Shown here piece after piece: positions 2,395 to 56,970 of a stretch of DNA of 64,000 bases. A program made the position numbers and the translations under genes. The notes beneath the pieces are model-generated. The model was given only the letters and a program-made list of their open reading frames with translations, was not told where the DNA came from and ran no database searches. Location of the stretch: positions 5,329,501-5,393,500 of the forward strand of contig NZ_CP089309.1 in NCBI RefSeq assembly GCF_021228795.1, in the 5' to 3' direction. Each line of letters opens with the position of its first letter. Position 1 is the first letter of the stretch. The DNA is from Thiocapsa bogorovii. GTDB lineage: Bacteria; Pseudomonadota; Gammaproteobacteria; Chromatiales; Chromatiaceae.

Positions 2395-3285
2395 ATGTCT
2401 TACCCAACAATCGAAGACTTCGTCGGCAACACGCCCCTTGTCAGACTCCAGCGGCTTCCCGGCAAGACGGACAACCTGATCCTGGCCAAGCTCGAGGGCA
2501 ACAATCCCGCAGGCTCCGTCAAGGATCGCCCTGCGTTGAACATGATCCGTCGAGCCGAGGAAAGGGGCACCATCAAACCCGGCGACACCTTGATCGAGGC
2601 AACGAGCGGCAACACCGGGATTGCGCTCGCGATGGCGGCGGCGATCAAGGGCTATCGGATGGTGCTCATCATGCCGGAGCATATGAGTGCGGAGCGACGC
2701 GGTGTCATGCGCAGCTTCGGCGCGGAGATCGTCCTGACACCCAAGGCGGGAAGCATGGAGGCGGCAATCGATCTGGCCAATGCGATGGAGGCGCGAGGGG
2801 AGGGGATCCGGCTCGATCAATTCTCCAACCCGGACAATCCGGCAGCGCACTACGAGTCGACCGGCCCGGAGATCTGGCGCGACACCGACGGGCGTATCAC
2901 CCACTTCGTCAGTGCGATGGGTACGACCGGGACCATCATGGGAACCGGACGCTACCTCAAAGAGCAGAACCCGAAGATTCAAATCATCGGCGTTCAGCCG
3001 GAGGCCGGTTCAAGCATCCCCGGGATCCGACGTTGGCCCGAGGCTTACCTTCCGAAGATCTTCGATCCCGCGAGTGTGGATCGGATCATCGATGTTTCTC
3101 AAGACATCGCCGAGCAGACCGCTCGCGAGCTTGCCGCGCGGGAGGGAATCTTCGGCGGGGTGTCGTCCGGGGGCTGCGTCGCAGCAGCGCTGTCGCTCTC
3201 GCGGGAGCTGAGCGACTCCGTTATCGTCGCGATCATCTGTGATCGAGGCGATCGCTATCTGTCGACCGGAGTGTTTCCGGCTTAG
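2395..3285 (+). CDS. cysM: Cysteine synthase B (O-acetylserine sulfhydrylase)
   Basis: 296 aa PLP enzyme joining O-acetylserine with sulfide or thiosulfate to give cysteine or S-sulfocysteine in the cytoplasm. The PLP lysine is K43 in NPAGSVKDRPA. The substrate loop TSGNTG is at 70-75 and the phosphate-binding GTTGT at 176-180. The C-terminus DRGDRYLSTGVF is diagnostic of CysM rather than CysK, and the length fits the family. The start codon ATG 2395 gives the normal N-terminus (MSYPTIEDFVGNTPLV). It is divergent from the HPt gene, as often seen for gacS-cysM. The usual downstream partner rlmD is about 60 kb away. Confidence 0.95.
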   Translation: MSYPTIEDFVGNTPLVRLQRLPGKTDNLILAKLEGNNPAGSVKDRPALNMIRRAEERGTIKPGDTLIEATSGNTGIALAMAAAIKGYRMVLIMPEHMSAERRGVMRSFGAEIVLTPKAGSMEAAIDLANAMEARGEGIRLDQFSNPDNPAAHYESTGPEIWRDTDGRITHFVSAMGTTGTIMGTGRYLKEQNPKIQIIGVQPEAGSSIPGIRRWPEAYLPKIFDPASVDRIIDVSQDIAEQTARELAAREGIFGGVSSGGCVAAALSLSRELSDSVIVAIICDRGDRYLSTGVFPA

Positions 3286-3485: not shown

Positions 3486-4157
3486 CTATGACTCCCGATG
3501 CTTTTCGGAACGAACTTTTTTGCGTCGAGACACAGCCGCGAGCCCGATCAACGCGCTTCCGAAAAGCCAACCGGCAGCGGGGATCGGCACCGCGTTCACG
3601 GACACCTTCGCCACGTCGAAACCGTCTTTCGGAGAAGACGTATTCAAGCCCAGGTCGACAAGGAGAAGATACCGGAAAACCCCGTCTGCATTCAAAGTTC
3701 CGCCGTTCGGGGGCGAAGCCGCAAAGTTCCCGAGCTCGCCGAGCTTCGTCCATTGGCTGGGCTCGGCTGTCATTGCTGGGAAGCTTGGCTTCGAGAAGTC
3801 CCAGGAATTTCCCGCGTAGACCGCGACCTTCTCCGGCCAGTGCCTGCATGTTCCGGCACCCGTGTCGTTACATGTGTTGAATGTCGTCTCCCAGACCGTC
3901 ACGGGCCCCGAAAAGGCTGTTCCAAATCCGAAGACGGCAGAGCCATTCAAACCTAAGCTTCGGAAAGTGCTAGTCGACCCGTCGAGTGCATTCGCGTTGA
4001 GGTGTCGATCATCTGCTTTCGTAATCCCCGCTTGTCCGAAGCCATACTGAAACGATGCCTGCGTCGCATCCACCCTCTCCGCCGTTGCAGGGACGCTGTG
4101 AAGGGCAAACGCGGAGATTGCCACCAAACCGACCAGATTCCGTGTCGCGATTCTCAT
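3486..4157 (-). CDS. Exported VPLPA/PEP-CTERM sorting-domain protein
   Basis: 223 aa. An N-terminal signal peptide (MRIATRNLVGLVAISAFALHS, cleavage near ATA-E) is followed by about 160 residues with no domain I recognise. That part contains two cysteines close together (NTCNDTGAGTCRHW) that could form a disulfide. The C-terminus is a textbook sorting signal: VPIPAAGWLFGSALIGLAA, then a basic tail RRKK. This is the VPLPA-CTERM variant, matching the XrtD-type exosortase at 13.8 kb, which would cut near the VPIPA motif at the membrane. A sigma-54 promoter lies about 70 bp upstream. It is probably an extracellular or surface matrix protein; the function of the body is unknown. Confidence 0.85.
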   Translation of the reverse strand: MRIATRNLVGLVAISAFALHSVPATAERVDATQASFQYGFGQAGITKADDRHLNANALDGSTSTFRSLGLNGSAVFGFGTAFSGPVTVWETTFNTCNDTGAGTCRHWPEKVAVYAGNSWDFSKPSFPAMTAEPSQWTKLGELGNFAASPPNGGTLNADGVFRYLLLVDLGLNTSSPKDGFDVAKVSVNAVPIPAAGWLFGSALIGLAAVSRRKKVRSEKHRES

Positions 4158-4972: not shown

Positions 4973-7090
4973 ATGTTGACTCCGCAAGCGACCGGGGAAC
5001 TGGGCTATGCGCTCGTTGCGGTTCTGTCCGCGGGCCTCGCATTACTGCTATTGATAAGCTGGCGTGGGCGCATGCAGGGCATGCTGTTGGTCGTGGCCGT
5101 GACGATCAACGCGGTGTGGGCAACGGCGCTTGCCGTTCAAGTGACCTGGAAGATCTTGCCGATCGAGGTCATCTGGGTGTTGGAGTCCTTGCGGGCATTC
5201 GCCTGGATTCTCTTCCTGGCGCGTCTGCTGGAGTTTCAGATCCAGGAACGACCGGGGGCTTTGCGATTGCTGAAGCGTTTGCGGGGTGTCGCCGTCGCGA
5301 TCGCCCTGCTGTTGTCTCTGCCGTTCGAGTCTTGGGTCTCGCCCTTCGTTGGCGAAGCCTATGAAATCGCGCTTCAGGCCCGGATGTTCGGGTACGTCGC
5401 ATTGTCCGTCATCGGGCTGGTGTTGGTCGAGCATGTCTACCGCAACACCCTTTGGCAGCGTCGCAACGAGATTCGCTTTTTGTGCTTCGGTCTCGGTGCG
5501 CTGTTCGGCTTTGACTTCTATTTTTATGCGGATGCGATGCTCGTGAACCGGATCGATCCGGAGATTTTGCTGGTGCGTGGACCCTGGAACGTCGTCGTCA
5601 TCCCGCTGTTGGCAATCTCCGCGGCACGAAATCCGCGTTGGACCGTCCATTTGTTTGTCTCGCGCACCTTGGTCTTTCATACCACGGCATTGGTGGCGAC
5701 TGGGATCTATCTGGTGCTGATGGCGTTTGCGGGCTACTGGATCAAGATTCACGGCGAGGAGTGGAGCGGACCGCTGCAGCTTCTGTTCCTCATCGGGGCC
5801 GGGGGTGTGCCGCTTTTGCTCTTCTTTTCAGGGCACTTGCGGGCATGGCTGAAAGTTTTTATCGCCAAAAGCTTCTTTCGCTCCCGGTTCGACTATCGGC
5901 ATGAGTGGATTCGGGTCACGCGGCGGCTGTCCGGACAAGAGCTTCACGTTGGTTTGCCGGAACGTATTGTCATCACCCTGGGAGAGCTGGTCGATCGGCC
6001 GGGCGGGGCGATCTGGGTCAGTGATGGAAAGGGGCGATTTCGCTGGGAAAGCTGTGTGGGCTGCAGCGAGGTTTGGATCGATCCGAGTTGGGATGCCGGG
6101 GAGTTCTGCCTGAGTTTGGAGCGTATCGGCTGGATTCTCGATCTGGCCGAATATGCGCGTGATCCCTCCCTGTATCCGGGGTTGGATGTACCGCCGTGGA
6201 TGGGAGATCTCAGGAATTTTTCGCTCGCCGTTCCGATCCTGCACGAGCACCGGGTCCTCGGCTTCGTGCTGCTCGTCAAGCCGCTCGTCCCGCATCCGCT
6301 CAACTGGGAGACGATCGATCTGCTCAAGACAGCGGCAATGCAGGCCGGCAGTTATCTCGCGCTGGAGCAGACCGCCAAGGCCCTTGCGGAGGCCCACCAG
6401 TTCGACGGATTCAACCGGCTCTCGGCGTTTGTGGTGCACGATCTCAAGAATCTGGTGGCGCAGTTGACTCTCGTCGTCCGTAATGCCGAACGACACAAGA
6501 ACAATCCGGCGTTCGTGGAAGACGCGTTCGCGACAGTCGGCAGTGCGGTCGAGAAAATGAATCGTCTCTTGCTGCAACTGCGCGGGGCAGGCTCGGGCGA
6601 GCGCGCCGATTCGGTCGATCTGCGCCGTCTGTTGCGGGATCTTGTTGCGGAGTCTGGACGCCGCGAACCCGTCCCGGTTCTCGATGTCAATGGGGTGGAG
6701 CATGGGGTCGTACACGCAGATCTAGACCGCTTGACCGCCGTGATCGATAATGTCATCCGCAACGCACAAGAGGCAACCGATCGCTCGGGTCAGGTTCGGG
6801 TCAGTTTGGTCGAACGCGGCGGGGAAGCGGTCATCGAGGTCGCCGATACCGGCGTAGGCATGGACGAGGATTTCATTCGAAATCGATTGTTTCGACCATT
6901 CGAATCGACCAAAGGCCTCGCAGGCATGGGCATCGGCGCATATGATTGTCGCCAATATATCCTAGGGATTGGCGGAAATGTGGAGGTCACGAGCCGACCG
7001 GGAGAGGGGGCTTGTTTCCGCATCCACATCCCTTTGGCGAGCGACATAAAGAAAGCGGAAACAGGGTCGGTCCCGGCGATGGAGACGTAA
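4973..7090 (+). CDS. prsK: PEP-CTERM system sensor histidine kinase PrsK
   Basis: 705 aa. About eight or nine predicted membrane helices fill residues 10-290. A GAF-like sensor segment follows (about 320-460), then a kinase core with the phospho-acceptor H489 in VVHDLKN, N597 in the N-box DNVIRNAQEAT, and the ATP-lid motif DTGVGMD from D625. The MASE-like multi-helix N-terminus plus GAF plus 'HDLKN' box is the PrsK architecture of exosortase systems. The next gene starts 12 bp later and encodes its partner PrsR, so the two form an operon. The signal it senses is not evident. In Zoogloea, PrsK-PrsR with RpoN is known to control PEP-CTERM protein genes. The start ATG 4973 leaves a short N-terminus before the first helix. 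Confidence 0.92.
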   Translation: MLTPQATGELGYALVAVLSAGLALLLLISWRGRMQGMLLVVAVTINAVWATALAVQVTWKILPIEVIWVLESLRAFAWILFLARLLEFQIQERPGALRLLKRLRGVAVAIALLLSLPFESWVSPFVGEAYEIALQARMFGYVALSVIGLVLVEHVYRNTLWQRRNEIRFLCFGLGALFGFDFYFYADAMLVNRIDPEILLVRGPWNVVVIPLLAISAARNPRWTVHLFVSRTLVFHTTALVATGIYLVLMAFAGYWIKIHGEEWSGPLQLLFLIGAGGVPLLLFFSGHLRAWLKVFIAKSFFRSRFDYRHEWIRVTRRLSGQELHVGLPERIVITLGELVDRPGGAIWVSDGKGRFRWESCVGCSEVWIDPSWDAGEFCLSLERIGWILDLAEYARDPSLYPGLDVPPWMGDLRNFSLAVPILHEHRVLGFVLLVKPLVPHPLNWETIDLLKTAAMQAGSYLALEQTAKALAEAHQFDGFNRLSAFVVHDLKNLVAQLTLVVRNAERHKNNPAFVEDAFATVGSAVEKMNRLLLQLRGAGSGERADSVDLRRLLRDLVAESGRREPVPVLDVNGVEHGVVHADLDRLTAVIDNVIRNAQEATDRSGQVRVSLVERGGEAVIEVADTGVGMDEDFIRNRLFRPFESTKGLAGMGIGAYDCRQYILGIGGNVEVTSRPGEGACFRIHIPLASDIKKAETGSVPAMET

Positions 7091-7102: not shown

Positions 7103-8470
7103 TTGGACGGTAACGATCGGACGCTTCTGATTGTCGAGGATGACCCCGGACTGCAGCGACAGTTGCGCTGGAGCTTCGAGGGCTTCGAGGGCTTCGAGGT
7201 TTTTGCGGTGGGGGACCGCGAGGCTGCGCTGGCCGAGGTACGCCGCCATCGACCTGCCGTGGTCACCCTGGATCTCGGGTTGCCGCCGGATCCCGGGGGA
7301 ACCAGCGAAGGATTCAGAGCGTTGCAGGAGATCCTTACGCTTTCGCCGACGACCAAGGTCGTTGTCGTCACCGGACATAACGACCGGGACAACGCGGTCC
7401 GCGCGGTCGGGCTCGGGGCCCACGATTTTTGCGAGAAACCGGTCGATCCGGAGGTGTTGACGCTCATCGTCACGCGCGCCAGTCAGATGCATTATCTCGA
7501 AGAGGAGAACCGAAGGCTGGCCTTGAAGGCGGCTTCGGATTACTCGTTCGAGGGGATGATCGCCGTGAGTCCGGAGATGCTGCAAATCCGCCGGATGATC
7601 GAGAAACTGGCCCCGATCGACGTCACCACCTTGGTCCTCGGCGAAAGCGGCACCGGTAAGGAGGTGCTGGTCAGAATCCTCCATGCGCTGAGCGCGCGAG
7701 CAAAGCAACGTTTGGTGGCGATCAACTGCGCCGCCATCCCGGAGGCGCTGCTCGAGAGCGAGCTTTTCGGCTACGAGAAGGGCGCCTTTACCGGGGCTGG
7801 AAAGGTCACGCCGGGAAAGATCGAGTCGGCGGACGGCGGTATCCTGTTTCTCGACGAGATCGGCGATTTGCCGCACCCCCTGCAGGCGAAGTTGCTGAGA
7901 TTCCTGCAGGAGCGGGTCGTCGAGCGGGTCGGGGGGCGCCAGGAGATCCCGGTGGATGTGCGCGTGGTTTGTGCGACACACCAGAATCTCATGGAGCTCA
8001 TTCGCGACGGCCGGTTCCGCGAGGACCTTTACTACCGGATCAACGGTGCAACCGTGCTGGTCCCCCCTCTGCGCGAACGCCAGGGCGATGTACTCGTGCT
8101 TGCCCGTACCTTCTTGCTCCGGTTCGCGGCCGAGTATCAACGACCGATCAAGGATCTAACGCCGGAGGCAAAGCGGGTCATCGAAATCTATCCCTGGCCC
8201 GGCAACGTTCGCGAGTTGGTGAACCGCGTCAAGCGCGCCGTGATCATGGCGGACGGTCAGTACGTCACACCGGAGGATCTGGAATTGGATGCTGTCGAGG
8301 AGGCATGCGAGCCGTTCGATCTGAGAGAGATCCGCGAGCATGCGGAGCGACGAGCCATTCAACGCGCATTGCAGCATCGCGACAACAATGTGTCACGTGC
8401 GGCGGATCTGCTGGGCATCACTCGGCCCACGCTCTACGGTCTCATCAAGAAGTACGACATCCCGACCTGA
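7103..8470 (+). CDS. prsR: PEP-CTERM-box response regulator PrsR, sigma-54 activator
   Basis: 455 aa, read from TTG 7103 because of the strong GGGGGTGAGG ribosome site just before it and the early LLIVEDD receiver strand. The receiver domain has the phospho-acceptor D57. The AAA+ domain has Walker A GESGTGKE (180-187) and the sigma-54-contact loop GAFTGA at 227-232. The C-terminus has a Fis-type helix-turn-helix ending near the last residue (NNVSRAADLLGITRPTLYGL). It should bind upstream sites and open sigma-54 promoters. Candidates in this window are at 4241, 50191 and 57715, all before sorting-signal protein genes. Residues FEGFEGFEVF are an internal duplication encoded by gagggcttc repeats. 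Cotranscribed with prsK. Confidence 0.93.
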   Translation: MDGNDRTLLIVEDDPGLQRQLRWSFEGFEGFEVFAVGDREAALAEVRRHRPAVVTLDLGLPPDPGGTSEGFRALQEILTLSPTTKVVVVTGHNDRDNAVRAVGLGAHDFCEKPVDPEVLTLIVTRASQMHYLEEENRRLALKAASDYSFEGMIAVSPEMLQIRRMIEKLAPIDVTTLVLGESGTGKEVLVRILHALSARAKQRLVAINCAAIPEALLESELFGYEKGAFTGAGKVTPGKIESADGGILFLDEIGDLPHPLQAKLLRFLQERVVERVGGRQEIPVDVRVVCATHQNLMELIRDGRFREDLYYRINGATVLVPPLRERQGDVLVLARTFLLRFAAEYQRPIKDLTPEAKRVIEIYPWPGNVRELVNRVKRAVIMADGQYVTPEDLELDAVEEACEPFDLREIREHAERRAIQRALQHRDNNVSRAADLLGITRPTLYGLIKKYDIPT

Positions 8471-9165: not shown

Positions 9166-9277
9166 GCGTTGGCGGTGGCTCAGGACGGAGTTCAAAGGAA
9201 CATCCTCCTGAAAAGTCGGAGTCGATCGCCCTAGCTACCCAGTCGTGTCACCAGTGACTTCCTATAAAGGTGACACC

Positions 9278-11176
9278 ATGAACAGCCATTGCATGCGCCA
9301 GCCGCGGGTAACCCCTCCTTCTGCGCAAAGCGCCTGGTCCCTGCGCTTTGCGACATTCTTCACGGTCTTTCTTGCACTTCTTATTGCTTCAACTGGCGTT
9401 TATGCAGCGGAAGTGAAGCTGGCTTGGGATCCAGTCGATGATAATCGCATGACTGGATACGAGCTGCACTACGGCGAGGCGAGCGGTCAGTATCAATCGT
9501 CCGTCAACACGGCCGAGACCACCACGATCGTAGCAGCTCTTGAATCCGGAAAAACCTATTATTTCGCCGTCAAGGCGACTGCGGCGGATCGCTCCTTGGA
9601 CAGCAGCTTCTCCGAGGAAGTCACCGCGACGATTCCTCACGAAGCACCTCAAGCGAGCTTCAATCTAAGCGGCTCGGCCGGCGTTGCGCCCCTCGCTTTG
9701 AGCTTCGTCGATACATCGACCGGTCAAGTCGACCAGTGGCAGTGGACCTTCGGGGACGGCCAAACGAGCACGGAGCGCTCCCCCAATCATCTGTATACGG
9801 CACCGGGCGAGTATATCGTGAGCCTTTTGGTTAGCGGACCGGGCGGTCTGTCCCCGCGAGCCGCGACAGCACGCGTGACGGTTGCGGCACCGCCGCCGGT
9901 AGCGGGTTTCACATCGAGTACGACCAACGGGGTAGCCCCGACGCTTGTCGTGTTCAACGATGCCTCGAGCGGCGACGTGAGCCAGTATGAATGGAACTTC
10001 GGGGACGGTGGAACCAGCACAGGCGCAAGCGCGGCCTGGACCTATTCAGCACCGGGCACCTATTCGGTCTCCCTGAAAGTCACGGGACCCGGCGGCTCCG
10101 ACAGCATCACCAAGACCAATCTCATCAGCATCGTAGGTCCCCCGCCAGTCGCAAACTTCGACGCTTCCGAGCGCAGCGGCGACGCCCCACTGAGCGTCAC
10201 CTTCCGAGATCTGTCCGCCGGCGAGATCACCGCTGTTCATTGGGACTTCGGCGATGGTCAGATGAGCAGCGAAAAGGCACCGACCCACATCTATACCGAG
10301 CCTGGTGTCTATGATGTGTCTCTGATGGTCAAGGGTCCTTATGGGAGCGACACGAGCTTCAAGAGCGCCTTCGTCGAGGTTATCGATCCAAACCAGGGTC
10401 TTCCGATCGAAGTCGGCGAGGTGGAGGTCGATCATAACTGGACATGGGTGGAATTCGGTCGTGATTTCGAAAACCCCGTGGTTGTCGCGAATCCGCCCAG
10501 CTTCAACGACACTGCTCCGGCTGTGGTCCGTATCGATGGTGTCGAGCCGACAGGATTCTGGATTCGAATCCAGGAGTGGGATTATCTCGACGGTATCCAC
10601 GGGTTCGAAACCGTAAACTATATCGCGGTGGAGAAGGGCAGCCATCTCCTGCCGAATGGCGATCGCATCGAGGCAGGAACCTTTATCCAAGCAGGCCGCA
10701 CATTCCATCGCCTTGGCTTCGCCGAAGCCTTTGCGAAGGTTCCCGTTGTGCTCACATCCGTCACCAGTGCAGCCGACGCCAAGGCCGTCACCACGCGAGT
10801 TCGCAATGTCTCGCTAAACGGCTTCGAGCTGCGGATGGATGAGCAGGAGTCCCTGAAAAAAGGGCACGGTGCAGAGACCATCAGTTACATCGCTTGGCCG
10901 CCTTCGGAAGGGGACATCGATGGACTTCAGTATCGCGTCGGCTTGACCGGCAAGAGCGTTACCGATAAACCATTTGTCGTAAAGTTCGGCGCCGGCGTCG
11001 TTGAGCCCCCGGCATTCCTGGCCCATCCCCAGAGCACGAACGGCGGGGATCCCACGACACTTCGTTATCATGACCTGACTGCCGGTCAAGTCGCGATCAG
11101 GGCCGAGGAAGACCAGTCACGCGACGTGGAGACGAGGCACGCCGCAGAGTCGGTGGGTTGGATGATCTTCAACTGA
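9278..11176 (+). CDS. Secreted Fn3 / triple-PKD / H-type-lectin-like protein
   Basis: 632 aa from ATG 9278, chosen because AAAGG at 9266-9270 precedes it; a GTG at 9245 would add 11 residues. The signal peptide has its core at about 22-42 (FATFFTVFLALLIASTGVYA). Next come a fibronectin-III domain (about 46-120) and three PKD domains (about 124-208, 210-297, 298-385), each with the W.FGDG motif and YT.PG.Y.V.L. The C-terminal 240 residues contain three repeats ending ETVNYIAVE, ETISYIAWP and ESVGWMIFN, resembling H-type-lectin-like modules. Such proteins bind polysaccharide or act as adhesins. There is no sorting signal or lipobox, so it is probably released or held by the matrix. It lies between prsR and the tyrosine kinase gene. 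Confidence 0.8.
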   Translation: MNSHCMRQPRVTPPSAQSAWSLRFATFFTVFLALLIASTGVYAAEVKLAWDPVDDNRMTGYELHYGEASGQYQSSVNTAETTTIVAALESGKTYYFAVKATAADRSLDSSFSEEVTATIPHEAPQASFNLSGSAGVAPLALSFVDTSTGQVDQWQWTFGDGQTSTERSPNHLYTAPGEYIVSLLVSGPGGLSPRAATARVTVAAPPPVAGFTSSTTNGVAPTLVVFNDASSGDVSQYEWNFGDGGTSTGASAAWTYSAPGTYSVSLKVTGPGGSDSITKTNLISIVGPPPVANFDASERSGDAPLSVTFRDLSAGEITAVHWDFGDGQMSSEKAPTHIYTEPGVYDVSLMVKGPYGSDTSFKSAFVEVIDPNQGLPIEVGEVEVDHNWTWVEFGRDFENPVVVANPPSFNDTAPAVVRIDGVEPTGFWIRIQEWDYLDGIHGFETVNYIAVEKGSHLLPNGDRIEAGTFIQAGRTFHRLGFAEAFAKVPVVLTSVTSAADAKAVTTRVRNVSLNGFELRMDEQESLKKGHGAETISYIAWPPSEGDIDGLQYRVGLTGKSVTDKPFVVKFGAGVVEPPAFLAHPQSTNGGDPTTLRYHDLTAGQVAIRAEEDQSRDVETRHAAESVGWMIFN

Positions 11177-12289: not shown

Positions 12290-13165
12290 ATGGAACGAAT
12301 AGAGGAAGCGCTAAAACGGTCGCGCCAGGAACAAAGCGATCTGCATCACAGTCGGTCGGGTCTGACCGAACCGCTCTCGTTGCCGACATCCAATCGTCCG
12401 GGGCCGATATCCGCCGCCGAGCGAAGCCCGACCTATACCCAGACGCGAACGATTGCACTAGATCCGGAGTATTTGCGGGATCACAGGGTGATCACGGATA
12501 TGACATACCCCGACGCTGCGGAGGCCTACAAAATCCTCCGTACCCAGGTTCTCCAACGGTTGCGGCTCAACGGCTGGCGTACGCTGGGAATCACGGCGAC
12601 AACACAGGGAAACGGAAAAACACTGACGTCGCTGAACCTTGCGATCAGCTTGGCAATGGAGGTGAACCAAACCGTCTTGCTGGCGGATCTGGATCTCAGA
12701 CGTCCGTCGTTGGCAACCTATTTGGCCGAAGAAAGACTCAATGGGCTGAGCGACTACCTGATCGGACGGTACGATATCTCAGAAATCCTCATCAATCCGG
12801 GAATCGACAGGCTGGTGATCCTCCCCGGCAACGAGCCCTTAATCAATTCGTCCGAGCAGCTCTCGAGTCCACGCATGGTCCAGCTGGTCGAGGAGTTGAA
12901 GACCCGCTACCCGGATCGAATCGTCTTGTTCGATCTGCCCCCGCTACTCGTCGGCGACGACGTCATGGCGTTCGCACCGAACTGCGATGCGCTCATGTTG
13001 GTCGTGGAAGAAAACAAAACCACCAGCGAGGAACTGCATCGCGCCTTCGAGCTACTCGAAGGCCAAAACATCATCGGCACGGTCTTGAACAAGTCCGTCT
13101 ACAACGTCGGCGCGCCAGGTTACGGCGGGTATGGTGGGTATGGCGGATCGAGCGGATATGCTTGA
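12290..13165 (+). CDS. EPS tyrosine autokinase (CpsD/CapB, EpsG type)
   Basis: 291 aa cytoplasmic BY-kinase. Walker A is TTQGNGKT with K110, Walker A' is LLADLDLRRP with D133/D135, and Walker B is IVLFDLPPLL. The C-terminus ends in a Gly/Tyr cluster (PGYGGYGGYGGSSGYA), the usual autophosphorylation site. It lacks membrane helices, so it must be paired with the separate Wzz-like activator at 46992-48791. The two-protein arrangement is known from Gram-positive CapAB and from exosortase-linked EPS loci. Phosphorylation cycles would control polymer length and export. It stands alone between two repeat-filled spacers. Confidence 0.9.
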   Translation: MERIEEALKRSRQEQSDLHHSRSGLTEPLSLPTSNRPGPISAAERSPTYTQTRTIALDPEYLRDHRVITDMTYPDAAEAYKILRTQVLQRLRLNGWRTLGITATTQGNGKTLTSLNLAISLAMEVNQTVLLADLDLRRPSLATYLAEERLNGLSDYLIGRYDISEILINPGIDRLVILPGNEPLINSSEQLSSPRMVQLVEELKTRYPDRIVLFDLPPLLVGDDVMAFAPNCDALMLVVEENKTTSEELHRAFELLEGQNIIGTVLNKSVYNVGAPGYGGYGGYGGSSGYA

Positions 13166-13818: not shown

Positions 13819-15426
13819 TCATTCCGGAATAAACCGCCGCAAGGGATCCGCAATCGTCTGGCTAAACGCCCTCAGCAACTCGTCGGCCTCGCCGGCATCC
13901 TGACCCGGCTCCAACGGCACTGTCAGTCGCACCAATGCCCCATCCGTTCGATTACGCACGAGCGCGTCCCAAAATAGGTACCACTTCACCAAGTACTCGT
14001 TGGTCATCAAGCGCCCGCGCTGCTGAAACCAGTAGTACACGAGAAGGCGCTCGTCCCCCATCTGAATCAGCGACCGGTTGACGCGAAGAGGACTACCAGA
14101 AGTCCCGGCGCCGGGGATCTCGACCTGCGAAAATTCCCGAATCTGCCATCCGCCCCCGGGAAGACAGGTTTTAGGCGAATGGACGGAGGCCCCCTTGCGT
14201 TGCGACTCATAATAGGCGACGTAGAGATTGACCGACTCCCCCGAGCTGGCGCGATAGTCCGACAGCAGATAGTCGTCCAACTGCAGCGCGTCCACATAGA
14301 CCCGCTCCATACGATCGGTCCGCCCCACCCAGTCCCCGAAGCTATTCGGGAAAAAGAGAAACGCCGTTCGCTCCGGAACCACTTCCACCCGATCCGGCAG
14401 TTGATGGGCCAAGATACCAACAAGGGCCAGCGCAGGAAGAACGGCATAGAAGGAGACCGGGATGCGCCGTTCCTGAAACGTCGCCGTCTTCGGCAGAGGG
14501 TCCGGCCATTGGATCGCGAATGCCTCCTGCAACGGCATCGGGTAAGGACCCACCTTCGCGAGCAGCCACATCAGCAGGACCAACAGAGCCGCACAGGCCA
14601 TAAACACGACCCAGCCCTCGAAATCGTGGATGAATCCCTCCGCCATCGCGATACCGCCGTGCTCCACCAGGATGCCGATCACCCCGATTCGAAAACTGTT
14701 CATCAGCACGGTGATGGGTAGCGTGGACAAGAGCAAGATTACCTTCTTCCAGAAGGCCCCCTTGAAGATGACAGCCGCGATGTAGCCCAATGCCGCCAAC
14801 GGAAACAGATATCGCAGACCGCTGCACGCCTCGACGACCTGAAGCTGATAACTACCCAAATCAATGACATTGCCTTCGAGGTGGACCGTGATTCCAAAGG
14901 CTCGGATAAACGCCACCCCCAGCTGCGAGGAGATAAGCTGAAGCTCCGCGGATAGATTGTTGTACAGGAAATGCGGGAGCGGCACGAGAAACCACAACAA
15001 ACCATATGCCGGGAGAATAATCTTGAACGCCTTCCAGCCCATGAGCGACAGCAATACACCGCCCAGCGTCAGCAAGAACGAATATTGTATCAAGGCATAA
15101 ATCGTTCCGAGTTCTCCGACGAGGTACAGGAACAAACCCAGTAGAGCGACACCGATGCCGGCCCAACTCGACTGAAACGGCGTTTGAGCGAGGAGCGTCG
15201 ACTTCTGCCAGGCAAAGAAGAGCGCGACGAATGGGAGCATGTAGCCATGGCTGTATTCCTCCGTACCCCATGCCCCAACCATGCGAGTCAAACCTTCGTG
15301 AAAGATCACCACGAGCAGCCCGAAGACGATGGCCATCCACACGACGTGAATGAACCGCGCCCTCCATGCGGTCCGCGGTTTTTCAATGATCGAAAGGGAA
15401 TCGGCAACTTGAGTGGAGTCAGTCAT
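13819..15426 (-). CDS. xrtD: Exosortase fused to an EpsI domain (XrtD type)
   Basis: 535 aa from ATG 15424-15426; upstream in-frame codons have no family match. Residues about 25-330 form a multi-helix exosortase with the cysteine-transpeptidase-like triad C201 (EACSGLRYL), R246 (NSFRIG) and H267 (IHDFEGW). Residues about 350-535 form an EpsI-like periplasmic domain ([28 protein letters not shown]). This fusion is characteristic of exosortase D, described as specific for VPLPA-CTERM targets. Two such substrates (3486-4157, 49294-50082) and a related one (56971-57519) lie in this window. It would cleave the sorting signal at the inner membrane and pass proteins to the surface or matrix. EpsI domains are linked to EPS assembly. 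Confidence 0.92.
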
Positions 15427-15727
15427 ATCAGGAGTCCCTTTGGGAGATGCTTCAGAGAGCAAGGTTCGTTGCCTCGGACCTGCATCACCCAACCATACAG
15501 ATGCTCGGTTCGCGACGGCCTGCGTTGATTGCGCTGAGGATACCCGGTTCCAGTCCGTGCGACGACCATTAATAAGGCGCTCCACAGTTCCCGCGGGACA
15601 CTGGCCAACCGGGCAGTGTCCACTGGGCAGCGGGCAGGGTCTCCCCCGGGATCAGGAGTTAAAGCAAAATCAATGCCGCCGGCCTCGCGGCGCTTGAGGG
15701 TCTTTTGGCTGTGATAGTCGGTGTCGT

Positions 15728-46446: not shown

Positions 46447-48791
<2,345 letters not shown>

Positions 48792-49202: not shown

Positions 49203-49233
49203 CAAAAAAGCCGCGGGTCAGATGGCCCGCGGC
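49203..49233 (-). terminator. Rho-independent terminator of the thioester-type VPLPA-CTERM gene
   Basis: On the minus strand GCCGCGGG-CCATCTGA-CCCGCGGC forms an 8-bp GC stem followed directly by TTTTTT. It lies about 60 bp after the stop of the gene at 49294-50082. Confidence 0.85.
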
Positions 49234-49293: not shown

Positions 49294-50082
49294 TTATGCG
49301 AGGGTTTCGCTCTCTTCGGTCTGCTTGCGATTCCGGCGTCCAAGGGCGGCGATGCCGAGCAGTGCGGAGCCGAATAGCCAAGCGGCGGCGGGGATCGGGA
49401 CTTGGCCGATGAAGTCTTGATTTGCCGTGCTTGTCAGCGCGACCAGGCCGCCCATAGCGGTCGCAGTACTCATCGCGTTGAGGTAGGCGGTCGCTTGGTT
49501 AAGGACGCCGGTGGTGAGCCCCGAGGTGATCTTCATGCTCCCGCCGGTGATGTCGTAGACAAATTCACCACTGGCGTTCGTTTGGCCCTCATGCACCACT
49601 TCCCAGATCGCGAGCTGCAGCGCCTGCTTCTGCACGTCCGTGAGGTTGCGAGCGTCGTTCAGCACGCCACTGGTGATCGCGGCACCAAGCAACTTCGCCA
49701 GGCTAGCCGCCTTAACGTCACCCATCGGACCTGCCGTTGAATCGGGTGCATTCGCGAGGCCAACCACGTCCCAAGTCCGACTCCCTGTTTGAGCGGTGTC
49801 ATCCAGATCGATGCAGAAGGTGACAAACTGGTCGGTCCCATACGTTAAGATCGGTCCCTCGGCCGCCGAGAAGTTAAAGATGCCGGTCGTCGTATTGCCG
49901 GTTTTTGTTGTCTGTGGGGAACCAGTGGGCGGAAGAACCACGGAGTAGCCGACACCACGGGTCTGTGTCATGCCACCGTAGGTTGCAGTCACCGTATCGG
50001 CCGCTGCCTGCCCGCTGAATGCCAATGCGCCGGCAAGTGCAAGCACGGATCCAACCGCGCTCAGTCTCATCATGGATTTCAT
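49294..50082 (-). CDS. Exported VPLPA-CTERM protein with thioester-domain-like Cys/Gln motifs
   Basis: 262 aa. Signal peptide residues 1-28 (cleavage near QAAA-D). The body has C90 in FVTFCIDLDD and Q156 in ALQLAIWEVVHE. The pair '[F/Y]C.D' and 'hQ.A.W' is the signature of thioester domains (TED), in which Cys and Gln form an internal thioester that can bond covalently to surfaces. The C-terminus is a classic sorting signal, VPIPAAAWLFGSALLGIAAL then GRRNRKQ. It has its own sigma-54 promoter (50191) and terminator (49203), so it is a monocistronic PrsR-type target. It is probably a matrix or surface protein processed by the exosortase. The thioester role is inferred from motifs only. Confidence 0.85.
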   Translation of the reverse strand: MKSMMRLSAVGSVLALAGALAFSGQAAADTVTATYGGMTQTRGVGYSVVLPPTGSPQTTKTGNTTTGIFNFSAAEGPILTYGTDQFVTFCIDLDDTAQTGSRTWDVVGLANAPDSTAGPMGDVKAASLAKLLGAAITSGVLNDARNLTDVQKQALQLAIWEVVHEGQTNASGEFVYDITGGSMKITSGLTTGVLNQATAYLNAMSTATAMGGLVALTSTANQDFIGQVPIPAAAWLFGSALLGIAALGRRNRKQTEESETLA

Positions 50083-50190
50083 CGTTTGACTCCCTGGTTG
50101 TGCGTCGCTTCGTTGATCGAGGACTGGACCGGCCGCATCGCGCTGCGAAGACTCGGGACAGCCGACAGTAGATACCGTCAGCTCTCTTTA

Positions 50191-50776: not shown

Positions 50777-52408
50777 TTAGGCGACCAGGCTCTTGACGAC
50801 GAGGATAGCGAGGGTCGCCGGGACGGCGAAACGCAGTGGATCCCAAGGGCCTTCGCGCTCCTGAATCAGGATCTCGATGGCATAGAAGAGCACGATGGCG
50901 GCGAGCACCTGGAGGCCGATCTCTCCAAGACCGAGACCTCTGAGCATCGGTGCCGTCAGGGCCGCAAGCAAGATCAGGACATCGAGCGTGCTCACGCGAA
51001 ATCCGGAGCTCGACAGACGTGTCCAGAGGCCCCCGAGCAGCGCAACCCCGCCGAAGAAGACCAGCAGACAGGGTTCGCAGATATCGATCAGGTGCGGCGA
51101 ATGCGCTACCAGGTAGACGACGATAACCGCCGCGGTGAAGGCGCTGATCCGCTCGAGGAAAAAGGCACTCTTCGTGCGTATCGCCAGGACGGCCAACGAC
51201 ACGACGAAGAGCGCTCCAGCCAAGACGCCGATGTCCGGTTCGACGGATTGCACGGACAGGGCACCGATGACGAGACACAAGGGAACCGTCAGGCTCAGGA
51301 TCCGAATCGGTGAACGCGTCACGAAACGGCGACGCCGTGCCCAGGCGCTGAACCTGACGAACGGGGTCCGATGCTCGTCCCGGCGTTTCAGACGCTCGTG
51401 GTAGTTCTCGAGCGTCCGGATCGCGGCCAGGATGAGTCCGCAGGACATCGCATAGGCGAGCAGGATCGCGCTGTCTGCGCTGTGCCGCATAAGATAGGCC
51501 AGGACGACCATCATGAACTGGGCGGTGTAGACGAGAGTGACGGCCTCGGCCTGAGTCAGGCCGCTGTCGATCAGCCGGTGATGCAGATGCGTCCGGTCCG
51601 CCTTGAACGGGGAATGTCCGGAGGCGATGCGCCGGACCATGACGGTGAGCATATCCAGGATCGGCAAGCCCAGCACGAGCAGGGGCAGGGCGCGGCTCAG
51701 GGCCAGATCCTCCCGCTGCGTGACCATAATGGCCAGCACCCCGGTCGTGAACCCCAGGAATTGACTGCCGGTATCGCCCATGAAGAGGCGTGCAGGGAAG
51801 GTGTTGAAACGCAGGAAGCCCAGAAGGGATCCGCCCAGGGCGGCCAGAAGAATCAGGAGAGAGCCCTCTGCACCGCCGTCGGCCACCAGCAGGAGGAGCA
51901 AGGCGGACCCCGCCAGTAGGCTGATTCCGCCGGCAAGCCCGTCGAGGCCGTCCGAGAGGTTGACCGCGTTGGTGATGCCGACCAACACCAGCACGGTGAA
52001 GGGAATGGCCAAGGGCATCGGCAACAGGCCGCCGGGGATGAAGGGGACCTCTTTGACGAGAACGCCGCCGGCGAGGACGACGACGGACGCGGCAAGCAGT
52101 TGGCCGAGCAGCTTCAGCCGGTAGTCGAGGTTGAAGCGGTCGTCGAGCAGACCGAACAGGAACAGCAGCGCGGCGGCGCCGAGGAAGGCCGCGAAAGGGC
52201 CTTCGATCGGCGCCCAGATGGCCACCGGGACCAAACAGCCGATCACGATCGCCACGCCGCCGATCCGCGGGATCTGCCCCTTGTGGACCTTGCGCGGATC
52301 GGGGGCGTCCATGAGGCCCAAGGGGCCGGCGACCCGAACGAGGAACGGGATCAGGGCCATCGCCAGGAACAAGGCTAGGACGAAGGCGTAAGCGGCACGA
52401 AGCTCCAC
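50777..52408 (-). CDS. WecA/MraY-like polyprenyl-phosphate HexNAc-1-P transferase with extended C-terminus
   Basis: 543 aa from GTG 52406-52408, preceded by AGGGAA; an ATG 14 codons upstream is the alternative. Family motifs: KVHKGQIPRIGGVAI, FGLLDDRFNLDYRLKLLGQL (catalytic DD), TNAVNLSDGLDGLAGG, RLFMGDTGSQFLGF and DRTHLHHRLIDSGL (UDP-sugar binding). The WecA-type core ends near residue 325. About 200 further residues contain five or six extra membrane helices of unknown role. It should start the repeat unit by moving HexNAc-1-P, probably GlcNAc-1-P, to undecaprenyl phosphate. This may have replaced the broken WcaJ-type enzyme at 199-1427. Confidence 0.9.
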   Translation of the reverse strand: MELRAAYAFVLALFLAMALIPFLVRVAGPLGLMDAPDPRKVHKGQIPRIGGVAIVIGCLVPVAIWAPIEGPFAAFLGAAALLFLFGLLDDRFNLDYRLKLLGQLLAASVVVLAGGVLVKEVPFIPGGLLPMPLAIPFTVLVLVGITNAVNLSDGLDGLAGGISLLAGSALLLLLVADGGAEGSLLILLAALGGSLLGFLRFNTFPARLFMGDTGSQFLGFTTGVLAIMVTQREDLALSRALPLLVLGLPILDMLTVMVRRIASGHSPFKADRTHLHHRLIDSGLTQAEAVTLVYTAQFMMVVLAYLMRHSADSAILLAYAMSCGLILAAIRTLENYHERLKRRDEHRTPFVRFSAWARRRRFVTRSPIRILSLTVPLCLVIGALSVQSVEPDIGVLAGALFVVSLAVLAIRTKSAFFLERISAFTAAVIVVYLVAHSPHLIDICEPCLLVFFGGVALLGGLWTRLSSSGFRVSTLDVLILLAALTAPMLRGLGLGEIGLQVLAAIVLFYAIEILIQEREGPWDPLRFAVPATLAILVVKSLVA

Positions 52409-52450
52409 AATGTTATTTCCCTGACGTGGCGGGCGAGGGTTTTCCGGCAT

Positions 52451-52689: not shown

Positions 52690-52800
52690 CGGTTCAGAAA
52701 CAACTTAGCCATTCCGGTTCATTCTCCCCCCTCTCCCCAACCCCTCTCCCGCGAGGGGCGAGGGGCTAAGATGGATCACTTGTTATTGAATGGTTACTTA
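52690..52800 (+). repeat. Repeat family B, copy 2, reaching the prsT stop codon
   Basis: CGGTTCAGAAACAACTTAGC, CATTCCGGTTCATTCTCCCC, then CCCCTCTCCCGCGAGGGGCG, TAAGATGGATCACTTGTTAT and TGAATGGTTACTTA. The last three bases are the complement of the prsT stop, so the element ends exactly at the gene's 3' end. Confidence 0.88.
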
Positions 52801-55182
52801 GAGTGTTCCGAGAGCTGCCTTGGCATCGTCTAGGCCGGTGTAGGGTTGCTCGGTGGCGACGGCGGAGGTGAGCAGTGCCTTGGCTTCGTCGACTCGGCCG
52901 AGCTTGAGGTAGGTCATGCCGAGGTGATATTGGCGCTCGGGTGTCGTCTCGCCGGATGCCTGCACCTTCTCCAAGATCTCTGCGGCGCGCTGGTATTCGC
53001 CGACGCGGTAGTAGACCCAGCCCAGGGTGTCGAGGAAGGCGGATTGCTCGGAGCCCGCGAAGCGCTGTGCCAGTCCGAGGGCGCGGCTGAGATCGGCCGG
53101 CTCGTCGGCACGATGGTCGGCGAGCAGGACGGCCAAGTTGTTGGCCACCGCGTCCGCGGTCGGGTTGGTGGCGAGCAGGTTTTCGTATGCCTCGATCGCT
53201 TGATCGTAGCGGCCGGCCCGCTCGAGCATCATGGGCAACGTAAAGACCAGCAAGGGGCTGGCCTTGGTCGCCTCGATACCGGCCTCGAGTGTCGCGACGG
53301 CCGCGGCCGGGTCGCCGTCCGCGAGCTGGAGATTGGCGAGTCGCTCGTAGGCTAGGGGTGCCCCCGGCCGTTGCTCGATGGCCCGGGCATACTGCTCGCG
53401 TGCCGCCGCGGGATTGCCGGCGGCGATGTAGACCTCGCCCAACAGGTTGGTCGCGACGATGCTGTCGGCGTCCGCCTCCAGTGCACGGCGGAGACGTGCC
53501 TCGGCCTCATCGTAGCGCTCCAGGGCCAGATAGCTCCGGGTCAGGGCCACCAAGGGCTCGGCGGCCTTGGGCTCCTTGTCCAGCGCCGTCTCGAAGTGGG
53601 GGACGCTGGCCTCGATCTCGCCGCGGCGCTGCGCCACCAGCCCCTTGAGGTAGTGGCCCAAGGGGTGATCCGGCCGCGTGGCCAGCACCTGATCGGCGGT
53701 CTTCTCCAGGGCGTCCGTATCCGGCTGGCTCTCTTGGATGCGGGCCAAGGCGGTCTGGGCGATGTCGCTGTTGGGGTCGCGGGCCAGCAGGGCATCCAGG
53801 ATGACGCCGGCACCTTCGAGATCGCCGCTACGTTGGCGGAGTCCTGCAAGCTGCAGGTAGCCGGCGGGATCGTCCGGCGACAGCTCGATGGACTTCTTGA
53901 GCGCGTCCTCGGCGAGGGACAGCTCGTCGCGGGCGGCATGGGCCTCGGCCAGGATGCGCAGTCCGCCGATCGACTCGGGGTTGTTCCTGAGCAGGGTCCG
54001 CAGGTCGCCGATTGCCGTGTCCGGGTCGCCGGCCTGCAGGGCGATGGCGGCGCGGACGAGTAGGGCGTCGCTGTCCTGCGCATCCTTGGCGAGCACCTCG
54101 TTCGCGAGTGCTTCGGCCTCGTCGAGGCGCTCCTGCGCGAGGAGCAGCCCGGCGAGCTTGCCCCGCGCCTGCTGAGCGGCGGGGCTCTCACCGCCACCGG
54201 CGATGACCTCTCGAAAGAGCGTCTGAGCCTGCTCGCTGTCGCCTGCCTGCATGCGCAGGGATCCGAGGGCGAAGCGCAGATCCTGATCCTCCGGTGCTGC
54301 GGCGATGAAGGTCGCCAGGGTCTCGGCGGCCACTTCGACCCCCTGCTGGGTGGCCTGCAGCTCGACCAGCAGGAGCTTGGCCTGGCGATCCTCGGGCAGG
54401 GCGACGACGGCATCGCGCAGGGTCTGCACGGCCGCGGCGGTCTCCCCGCGTGCAGCCAGGTATTGGGCCAGGCGGGTGCGGTGGTCCAGGACCTTGGGCT
54501 CGCGCTCGATCAAGCGCTCGAGGACCGCGCGTGTGCCGGCGGTATCGCCCATCTGCTCGTTGATGCCGGCCATGGCCAGCATGAAGCGGAGGTCATCCGG
54601 GTGGGCGGCCAGCGCGGTCTCGAGCGCCTGTTTGGCGCCGGGCAGGTCATTGCGCTCGAGACGGATTTGAGCCAGGAGCGCGAGCGCCTCCCGGTCTTGC
54701 GGGGCCTGCGCGAGCGCGGATTCGGCATCCACCCGGGCCGCATCCAAGTCGCCTTGGCGGACACGGACGAAGCCGCGCAGGGCCAGCGCCGAGGCATCTC
54801 CGGGCTTCGCGGTCAACACGGCATCGGCCTGCGCCAGGGCCCCTTCGATGTCTTCGCTGGCGAGCAGCAAGGTTCCCAGCTTGACGCGGGCTTCCAGGTT
54901 CTCCGGGCTCAGCTCGACGGTCTTGGAGTAGGCCGAGTAGGCGTTGCGCCACTCTTCCTGCTGCTCCGCGATTTTGGCGAGCATGAACCAGGCTTCGGCG
55001 TCTTTCGGGTCAACCTGGAGCACGTTGCGGAACTCCAGCTGCGCCTTGACCAGGTCGCCCTCGTCGTAGAGGTCCAGGCCACGCTGCAGGTAGCTTTGGG
55101 CCCGGTCTTCCTGCCCGCAGCCCGCCGTCAAGGCGACGCTGCCGAGAAGAAGGAGAAGCTTCGCATAGGATCTTGGTTTCAT
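52798..55182 (-). CDS. prsT: PEP-CTERM system TPR lipoprotein PrsT
   Basis: 794 aa. The signal peptide ends in the lipobox LTAGC with Cys near residue 22, so the protein is a lipoprotein. The rest is a continuous array of about 20 TPR-like 34-residue repeats (AEAWFMLAKIAEQQEEWRNA, AYLQLAGLRQRSGDLEGAGV-type helices) ending with YLKLGRVDEAKALLTSAVAT. The length is slightly under that of typical PrsT (about 900). It is part of the exosortase/EPS machinery and is thought to scaffold assembly in the periplasm. A second, truncated relative forms the C-terminal part of the chimeric gene at 60526-62040. A TATAAT box lies just upstream. Confidence 0.92.
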   Translation of the reverse strand: MKPRSYAKLLLLLGSVALTAGCGQEDRAQSYLQRGLDLYDEGDLVKAQLEFRNVLQVDPKDAEAWFMLAKIAEQQEEWRNAYSAYSKTVELSPENLEARVKLGTLLLASEDIEGALAQADAVLTAKPGDASALALRGFVRVRQGDLDAARVDAESALAQAPQDREALALLAQIRLERNDLPGAKQALETALAAHPDDLRFMLAMAGINEQMGDTAGTRAVLERLIEREPKVLDHRTRLAQYLAARGETAAAVQTLRDAVVALPEDRQAKLLLVELQATQQGVEVAAETLATFIAAAPEDQDLRFALGSLRMQAGDSEQAQTLFREVIAGGGESPAAQQARGKLAGLLLAQERLDEAEALANEVLAKDAQDSDALLVRAAIALQAGDPDTAIGDLRTLLRNNPESIGGLRILAEAHAARDELSLAEDALKKSIELSPDDPAGYLQLAGLRQRSGDLEGAGVILDALLARDPNSDIAQTALARIQESQPDTDALEKTADQVLATRPDHPLGHYLKGLVAQRRGEIEASVPHFETALDKEPKAAEPLVALTRSYLALERYDEAEARLRRALEADADSIVATNLLGEVYIAAGNPAAAREQYARAIEQRPGAPLAYERLANLQLADGDPAAAVATLEAGIEATKASPLLVFTLPMMLERAGRYDQAIEAYENLLATNPTADAVANNLAVLLADHRADEPADLSRALGLAQRFAGSEQSAFLDTLGWVYYRVGEYQRAAEILEKVQASGETTPERQYHLGMTYLKLGRVDEAKALLTSAVATEQPYTGLDDAKAALGTL

Positions 55183-55319: not shown

Positions 55320-56849
<1,530 letters not shown>

Positions 56850-56970
56850 TGAGGCATACTCCAACGAGATCGGCGGATACAATCATACCGTGTGCCCGGC
56901 GAGACTATCTCACAAGAGGCCGTCGGAGGCGATGCCATGAACGGCTCGTCGCTTGGAGAGGTCTGCGTGC

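Follow-up and report, generated by a model that had tools for sequence, protein, structure and literature searches.

The window, a 64,000-nt stretch of DNA lying in a 5.65-Mb single-contig genome, encodes a real and conserved exosortase substrate of 262 amino acids that resembles the thioester domains (TEDs) of Gram-positive bacteria. We regard it as fairly probable that this protein is a minimal, stalkless Gram-negative TED variant, tethered through exosortase, in which a thioester between C90 and Q222 would covalently cross-link nucleophiles of the matrix or cell surface. The original prediction had placed the thioester between C90 and Q156. The core of that prediction, a thioester, is probably right, and its choice of residues is probably an error.

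The exosortase substrate and its genomic setting

The open reading frame begins with ATG and is preceded by a ribosome-binding-like AGGGAG at 50090-50095. Its product consists of an apparent signal peptide, a single ectodomain of ~200 residues (~30-227) and a VPLPA/PEP-CTERM tail. The two residues singled out by the original prediction, C90 in FCIDL and Q156 in LQLAIW, are present at those positions in a real open reading frame, and C90 is the sole cysteine of the protein. The gene and its features are as follows:

49294-50082, minus strand: TED-like exosortase-sorted surface protein, 262 aa (open reading frame; sub-threshold PF08341 match; TIGR03370 tail)
49999-50082, minus strand: predicted signal peptide, ~residues 1-28 (MKSMMRLSAVGSVLALAGALAFSGQAAA), read by eye from the sequence
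49813-49815, minus strand: codon of C90 in FCID, the [YFL]C-Phi-zeta motif; predicted thioester cysteine, invariant in 15 relatives
49615-49617, minus strand: codon of Q156 in ALQLAIWEVV, equivalent of the TQxxPhiW helix glutamine; invariant and, from known TED behaviour, predicted to be non-bonding
49417-49419, minus strand: codon of Q222 in NQDFI; glutamine predicted to form the thioester, invariant in 15, at the motif position of SaTIE-TED Q467
49327-49401, minus strand: VPLPA/PEP-CTERM sorting signal VPIPAAAWLFGSALLGIAALGRRNR, residues 228-252 (TIGR03370)
49210-49233, minus strand: weak terminator-like hairpin and T run 3' of the gene, in a setting where hairpins are no more numerous than in shuffled sequences

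The protein has the signal peptide, VPxP motif, hydrophobic segment and basic end of an exosortase substrate. The VPLPA-CTERM model TIGR03370 (cut-off 25.35) scored the tail at 26.4 bits in a six-frame search, above the cut-off, and at 21.9 bits by hmmscan, below it. This tail and an exosortase gene on the same chromosome (PF09721, within the window) support the proposal that the protein is sorted by exosortase. The host had also been described as an exopolysaccharide producer, which is supported by an XrtA exopolysaccharide cluster in the window:

3486-4157, minus strand: second VPLPA-CTERM protein, without TED motifs (TIGR03370 above cut-off; sequence)
4973-7090, plus strand: PrsK, XrtA/PEP-CTERM system histidine kinase (TIGR02916, 691.5 bits)
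7103-8470, plus strand: sigma54-type regulator directly after PrsK (from its translation)
12290-13165, plus strand: XrtA-associated tyrosine autokinase (TIGR03018, 178.2 bits, under the cut-off of 230.65)
14560-15318, minus strand: exosortase (EpsH/Xrt) domain in the open reading frame 13819-15585 (PF09721, 238.6 bits)
46992-48791, minus strand: XrtA-system polysaccharide chain-length determinant (TIGR03007, 270.4 bits against a cut-off of 278.85)
50777-52450, minus strand: WecA-like glycosyl-phosphotransferase (TIGR02380, 171.7 bits, under the cut-off of 326)
52798-55182, minus strand: PrsT-like XrtA-system TPR protein (TIGR02917, 308.7 bits against a cut-off of 312.2)

The minus-strand order is thus PrsT, the WecA-like transferase, the TED-like gene and the chain-length determinant. 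TED-like genes adjoin PrsT in three genera, represented by the window and two other genomes; in one of these (G041) the PrsT gene is flanked on both sides by TED-like genes, and in the other (G546) one TED-like gene lies between PrsT genes. No sigma54 site of the kind associated with pepA was found within one mismatch near the TED-like gene.

Other genes of the window have features of note. The second VPLPA-CTERM protein (3486-4157) has a different ectodomain and two cysteines. Within the exopolysaccharide cluster, the plus-strand gene at 9245-11176 encodes a secreted protein whose N-terminus is fibronectin-like and which contains several PKD-like repeats; homologues of this protein adjoin the TED-like genes of G041. 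At 55320-56882 on the minus strand, a UDP-sugar dehydrogenase-like open reading frame contains an in-frame repeat run resembling an inserted repeat element.

Resemblance to thioester domains

Of the 24,736 Pfam families searched at E<=10, the TED family PF08341 was the only one reported for the window protein (residues 88-167, E 0.013, 16.4 bits). Scores of 16.4-18.2 bits across searches do not reach the curated Pfam cut-off of 22 bits, and the protein is not formally a member of the family. PF08341 was matched by 10 of the 12 relatives scanned, and a homologue from the same bacterial family (L050) exceeded the cut-off at 25.1 bits (E 2.5e-5). This is comparable to the 24.5 bits obtained with the pLS20 TED, in which mutation showed the cysteine to be needed for function. 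A sequence search of the PDB gave no match to the window protein, and an hhalign comparison with a profile of class II TEDs from pLS20-type plasmids aligned the cysteine region alone (probability 2.6%, E 0.018). The same profile reaches the solved SaTIE-TED only at E 0.009, which indicates that low scores are usual when TEDs are compared with one another.

All three TED motifs can be recognized in the window protein. FCID at C90 conforms to [YFL]C-Phi-zeta, and LQLAIW corresponds to TQxxPhiW with the threonine replaced and with the glutamine and tryptophan invariant in 15 sequences; among known TEDs, not one residue of TQxxPhiW is fully conserved (PMC4450167). NQDFI at Q222, 132 residues past the cysteine, corresponds to the C-terminal glutamine motif PhiQzetaPhiPhi without its leading Phi, and the residue preceding Q222 is mostly non-hydrophobic among the relatives, such that the motif holds only as QzetaPhiPhi. 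Among 200,000 shuffled versions of the window protein, examined with search patterns composed after the sequence had been seen, 46 contained the C/QxxPhiW pair and none contained this pair together with the C-terminal Q-motif.

The sub-threshold Pfam score and the weak hhalign result are what would be expected if this were an unrelated PEP-CTERM family with a chance similarity to TEDs. We consider this improbable, as independent relatives repeatedly match the TED family in the same registers, one of them above the cut-off, and the full motif set is absent from 47 of 48 other PEP-CTERM proteins, the single exception aligning to the window protein. The TED resemblance predicted for the protein is supported by both the PF08341 matches and the motifs.

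C90, Q156, W160 and Q222 are all invariant in 15 sequences, many of which share no more than 18-30% identity with the window protein; E161 and A154 are also invariant in a 12-member alignment. The relatives came from searches of the bacterial family, class and phylum to which the genome belongs, and of viral contigs, and were selected with a C...QxxPhiW filter, so for the weak matches the invariance of C90, Q156 and W160 follows in part from the way they were chosen. All matches with E<=1e-3 in the family and phylum searches satisfied this filter, and two members from phage contigs were chosen by a QxAPhiWE motif alone. The C-terminal glutamine (QD[LFYV]) played no part in choosing 14 of the 15, and for this reason no other single line of evidence is as strong as the invariance of the Q222 motif. 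Searches with an ectodomain profile showed relatives to be scarce: of 210 genomes from the same family, 5 had strong matches, and about 1-2% of a phylum-wide sample had any match.

The exception to this selection, L013 (G037; neighbourhood L122, about 9618-10151), was picked by the full triad. It is a divergent PEP-CTERM protein with FCLE, FQNAIWYF and AQDVL and no Pfam match, and perhaps represents a further subfamily of TED-like proteins sorted by exosortase.

In most relatives, the mature part has one cysteine only, as does the window protein, which argues against a structural disulfide. A single cysteine per mature chain in most members would also suit a free thiol at C90 that binds a ligand or forms disulfides between molecules, as dimers or as matrix cross-links, with the TED likeness incidental. 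There is a small chance that this is so, given that it leaves the invariance of Q156, W160 and Q222 and the repeated TED matches unexplained.

Two AlphaFold models, from alignments of 2 and 4 sequences, had pLDDT values of 38.8 and 41.5 with no residue above 70, too low to yield distances between residues. The low-confidence 4-sequence model has three main helices and an end hairpin in the order strand (C90), helix, helix (Q156), helix, strand, strand (Q222), an order consistent with that described for TEDs, whose fold combines a beta-barrel and a three-helix bundle and sets the cysteine strand beside the glutamine strand. Foldseek comparison of both models with the PDB returned noise and no convincing fold match. 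One entry, 5dcq (FNE), which we take to be a TED-bearing adhesin, ranked 41 at E 5.7 and is not counted as evidence.

Candidate glutamines for the thioester

In TEDs, the thioester joins the cysteine of [YFL]C-Phi-zeta to the glutamine of a weak C-terminal PhiQzetaPhiPhi motif (PMC4450167, PMC6194298); this glutamine sits on a C-terminal beta-strand 129-204 residues past the cysteine in characterised or modelled TEDs, for example 129 in CpTIE and 152 in SfbI. The glutamine of TQxxPhiW, sometimes together with the tryptophan, instead hydrogen-bonds the cysteine backbone in TED structures, and neither residue is essential for thioester formation in Cpa (PMC4450167, PMC6194298). The published thioester pair of SaTIE-TED is C296 and Q467 (PMC6194298). 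Counting along the 6FX6 chain, with the construct beginning at Gln254 and a four-residue tag assumed, places C296 in FCIE and Q467 in NAQKV. The motifs FCIE, ATQMLIWELL and NAQKV of SaTIE-TED have FCID, ALQLAIWEVV and ANQDFI as counterparts in the window protein.

From these comparisons, the reactive pair is probably C90 and Q222, not Q156. The order of the motifs matches that of SaTIE-TED, in which the bonded glutamine comes last, and the C90-Q222 spacing of 132 residues falls within the 129-204 range whereas the C90-Q156 spacing of 66 falls outside it. The original prediction had overlooked the third motif, NQDFI, and probably assigned its chemistry to the wrong glutamine. Although C90 and Q156 are both invariant, a thioester between them appears very improbable: the equivalent glutamine is non-bonding in known TEDs and dispensable in Cpa (PMC4450167, PMC6194298), cysteine-to-QxxPhiW-glutamine spacings of 48-81 residues are far below 129-204, and a second invariant glutamine holds the bonding position. 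As the TQxxPhiW glutamine is unbonded in known TEDs, C90 and Q156 may lie close together without being bonded, and the distance to examine in a structure is C90-Q222 rather than C90-Q156.

In sequence, a bond that has formed and a set of conserved core residues look alike, and the TQxxPhiW glutamine is itself conserved yet unbonded in known TEDs (PMC4450167, PMC6194298). The protein could accordingly have a TED-derived fold in which the C/Q/W/Q core is kept for packing and hydrogen bonds, with no reactive thioester, and act as an ordinary non-covalent PEP-CTERM matrix protein. We judge this unlikely, though the most credible of the alternatives: an unpaired exported cysteine and a glutamine at thioester spacing, both invariant in 15 divergent sequences, are what a thioester bond needs.

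The window protein shares with Class I TEDs (PF08341: SfbI, FbaB, Cpa, CpTIE and PnTIE) the three motifs [YFL]C-Phi-zeta, QxxPhiW and Q-zeta-Phi-Phi in the same order and spacing, and like them it is secreted and surface-sorted. It differs in being Gram-negative, in carrying an exosortase PEP-CTERM signal in place of the sortase LPXTG, and in consisting of a ~200-aa ectodomain that abuts the anchor without an isopeptide/ester stalk. Class II TEDs (SaTIE, BaTIE and pLS20 TIE; TED_2, PF20610) have a similar cysteine motif (FCIE/YCID), the ATQMLIWELL of SaTIE, and a bonded glutamine in a short motif (NAQKV, YQRL, KQDL) that resembles NQDFI, but they carry an inserted beta-sandwich of ~75 residues for which the window ectodomain is too short. 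The Gram-positive TIE layout of an N-terminal TED, an isopeptide/ester stalk and LPXTG is replaced here by a single short ectodomain and VPLPA-CTERM.

Other PEP-CTERM proteins, such as PepA, keep exopolysaccharide on cells in flocs (PMC9850573). PepA (NF033554) has in common with the window protein a PEP-CTERM tail and a gene near prsT, and the likeness is essentially that of the tail (27.9 bits against a cut-off of 80). PepA was considered as a TED and rejected, the motif set being absent from the PepA homologues examined.

Proposed mechanism and phage-borne copies

In the proposed C90-Q222 mechanism, the protein would be exported by Sec and then processed at VPIP of its VPLPA/PEP-CTERM tail by the co-encoded exosortase. 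The predicted fold of the ectodomain (~30-227) comprises a beta-barrel, three core helices and a closing beta-hairpin. An internal thioester between C90 and Q222 would form spontaneously, while two residues of the central helix, Q156 and W160, would hold the cysteine strand and shield the bond. Attack by an amine (Lys) or a hydroxyl (sugar) would leave the target permanently linked through Q222. With the exosortase-processed end attached or embedded, exopolysaccharide, a matrix protein or a neighbouring surface would be covalently tied to the cell. Q222 lies six residues ahead of the sorting motif, which would place the reactive domain on the anchor without a stalk; this placement suits matrix cross-linking rather than reaching distant hosts. 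A putative role as a covalent matrix cross-linker or adhesin is plausible.

Two phage contigs also encode TED-like PEP-CTERM proteins (L082 and L083), and both keep all of the motif residues:

2550-3266, L082: TED-like gene on IMGVR_UViG_3300027887_000580, a 5,760-bp T4-like viral contig (L072 is the same contig reversed)
2977-4506, L083: TED-like/PEP-CTERM locus on IMGVR_UViG_3300003322_000571, a 350,089-bp viral contig of jumbo-phage size

The L082 genes lie on one strand and comprise a gp46-like gene, the TED-like gene with its VPIPAAAWLFATG PEP-CTERM tail, a gp59-like gene and a gp32-like gene; the TED-like ectodomain is 42% identical to that of the window protein. The L083 contig has exactly two PEP-CTERM genes, which are adjacent, the first being TED-like; NAMPT-like and NAD-kinase-like genes are neighbours, and an endonuclease VII homologue is also present. 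Searches of plasmid records and of phage records, INPHARED among them, gave no match.

A 2015 survey reported TEDs from Gram-positives only (PMC4450167), and the relatives described here extend to other proteobacteria. The window protein would be new in being Gram-negative and exosortase-sorted yet working like a TED. Tentatively, exosortase-coupled thioester adhesion may extend beyond Gram-positives as a self-curing cross-linker of the exopolysaccharide matrix, and may have been captured by phages, one T4-like and one of 350 kb, that use the host exosortase to alter the surface or matrix of the infected cell.

The functions of exosortase substrates within the matrix are poorly understood. With its TED joined directly to a PEP-CTERM tail, the window protein would give one of them a specific chemistry, the covalent capture of matrix nucleophiles, and the correction from Q156 to Q222 determines which mutant is relevant. 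The phage-borne copies, if true, would add covalent surface modification to the possible effects of phages on their hosts.
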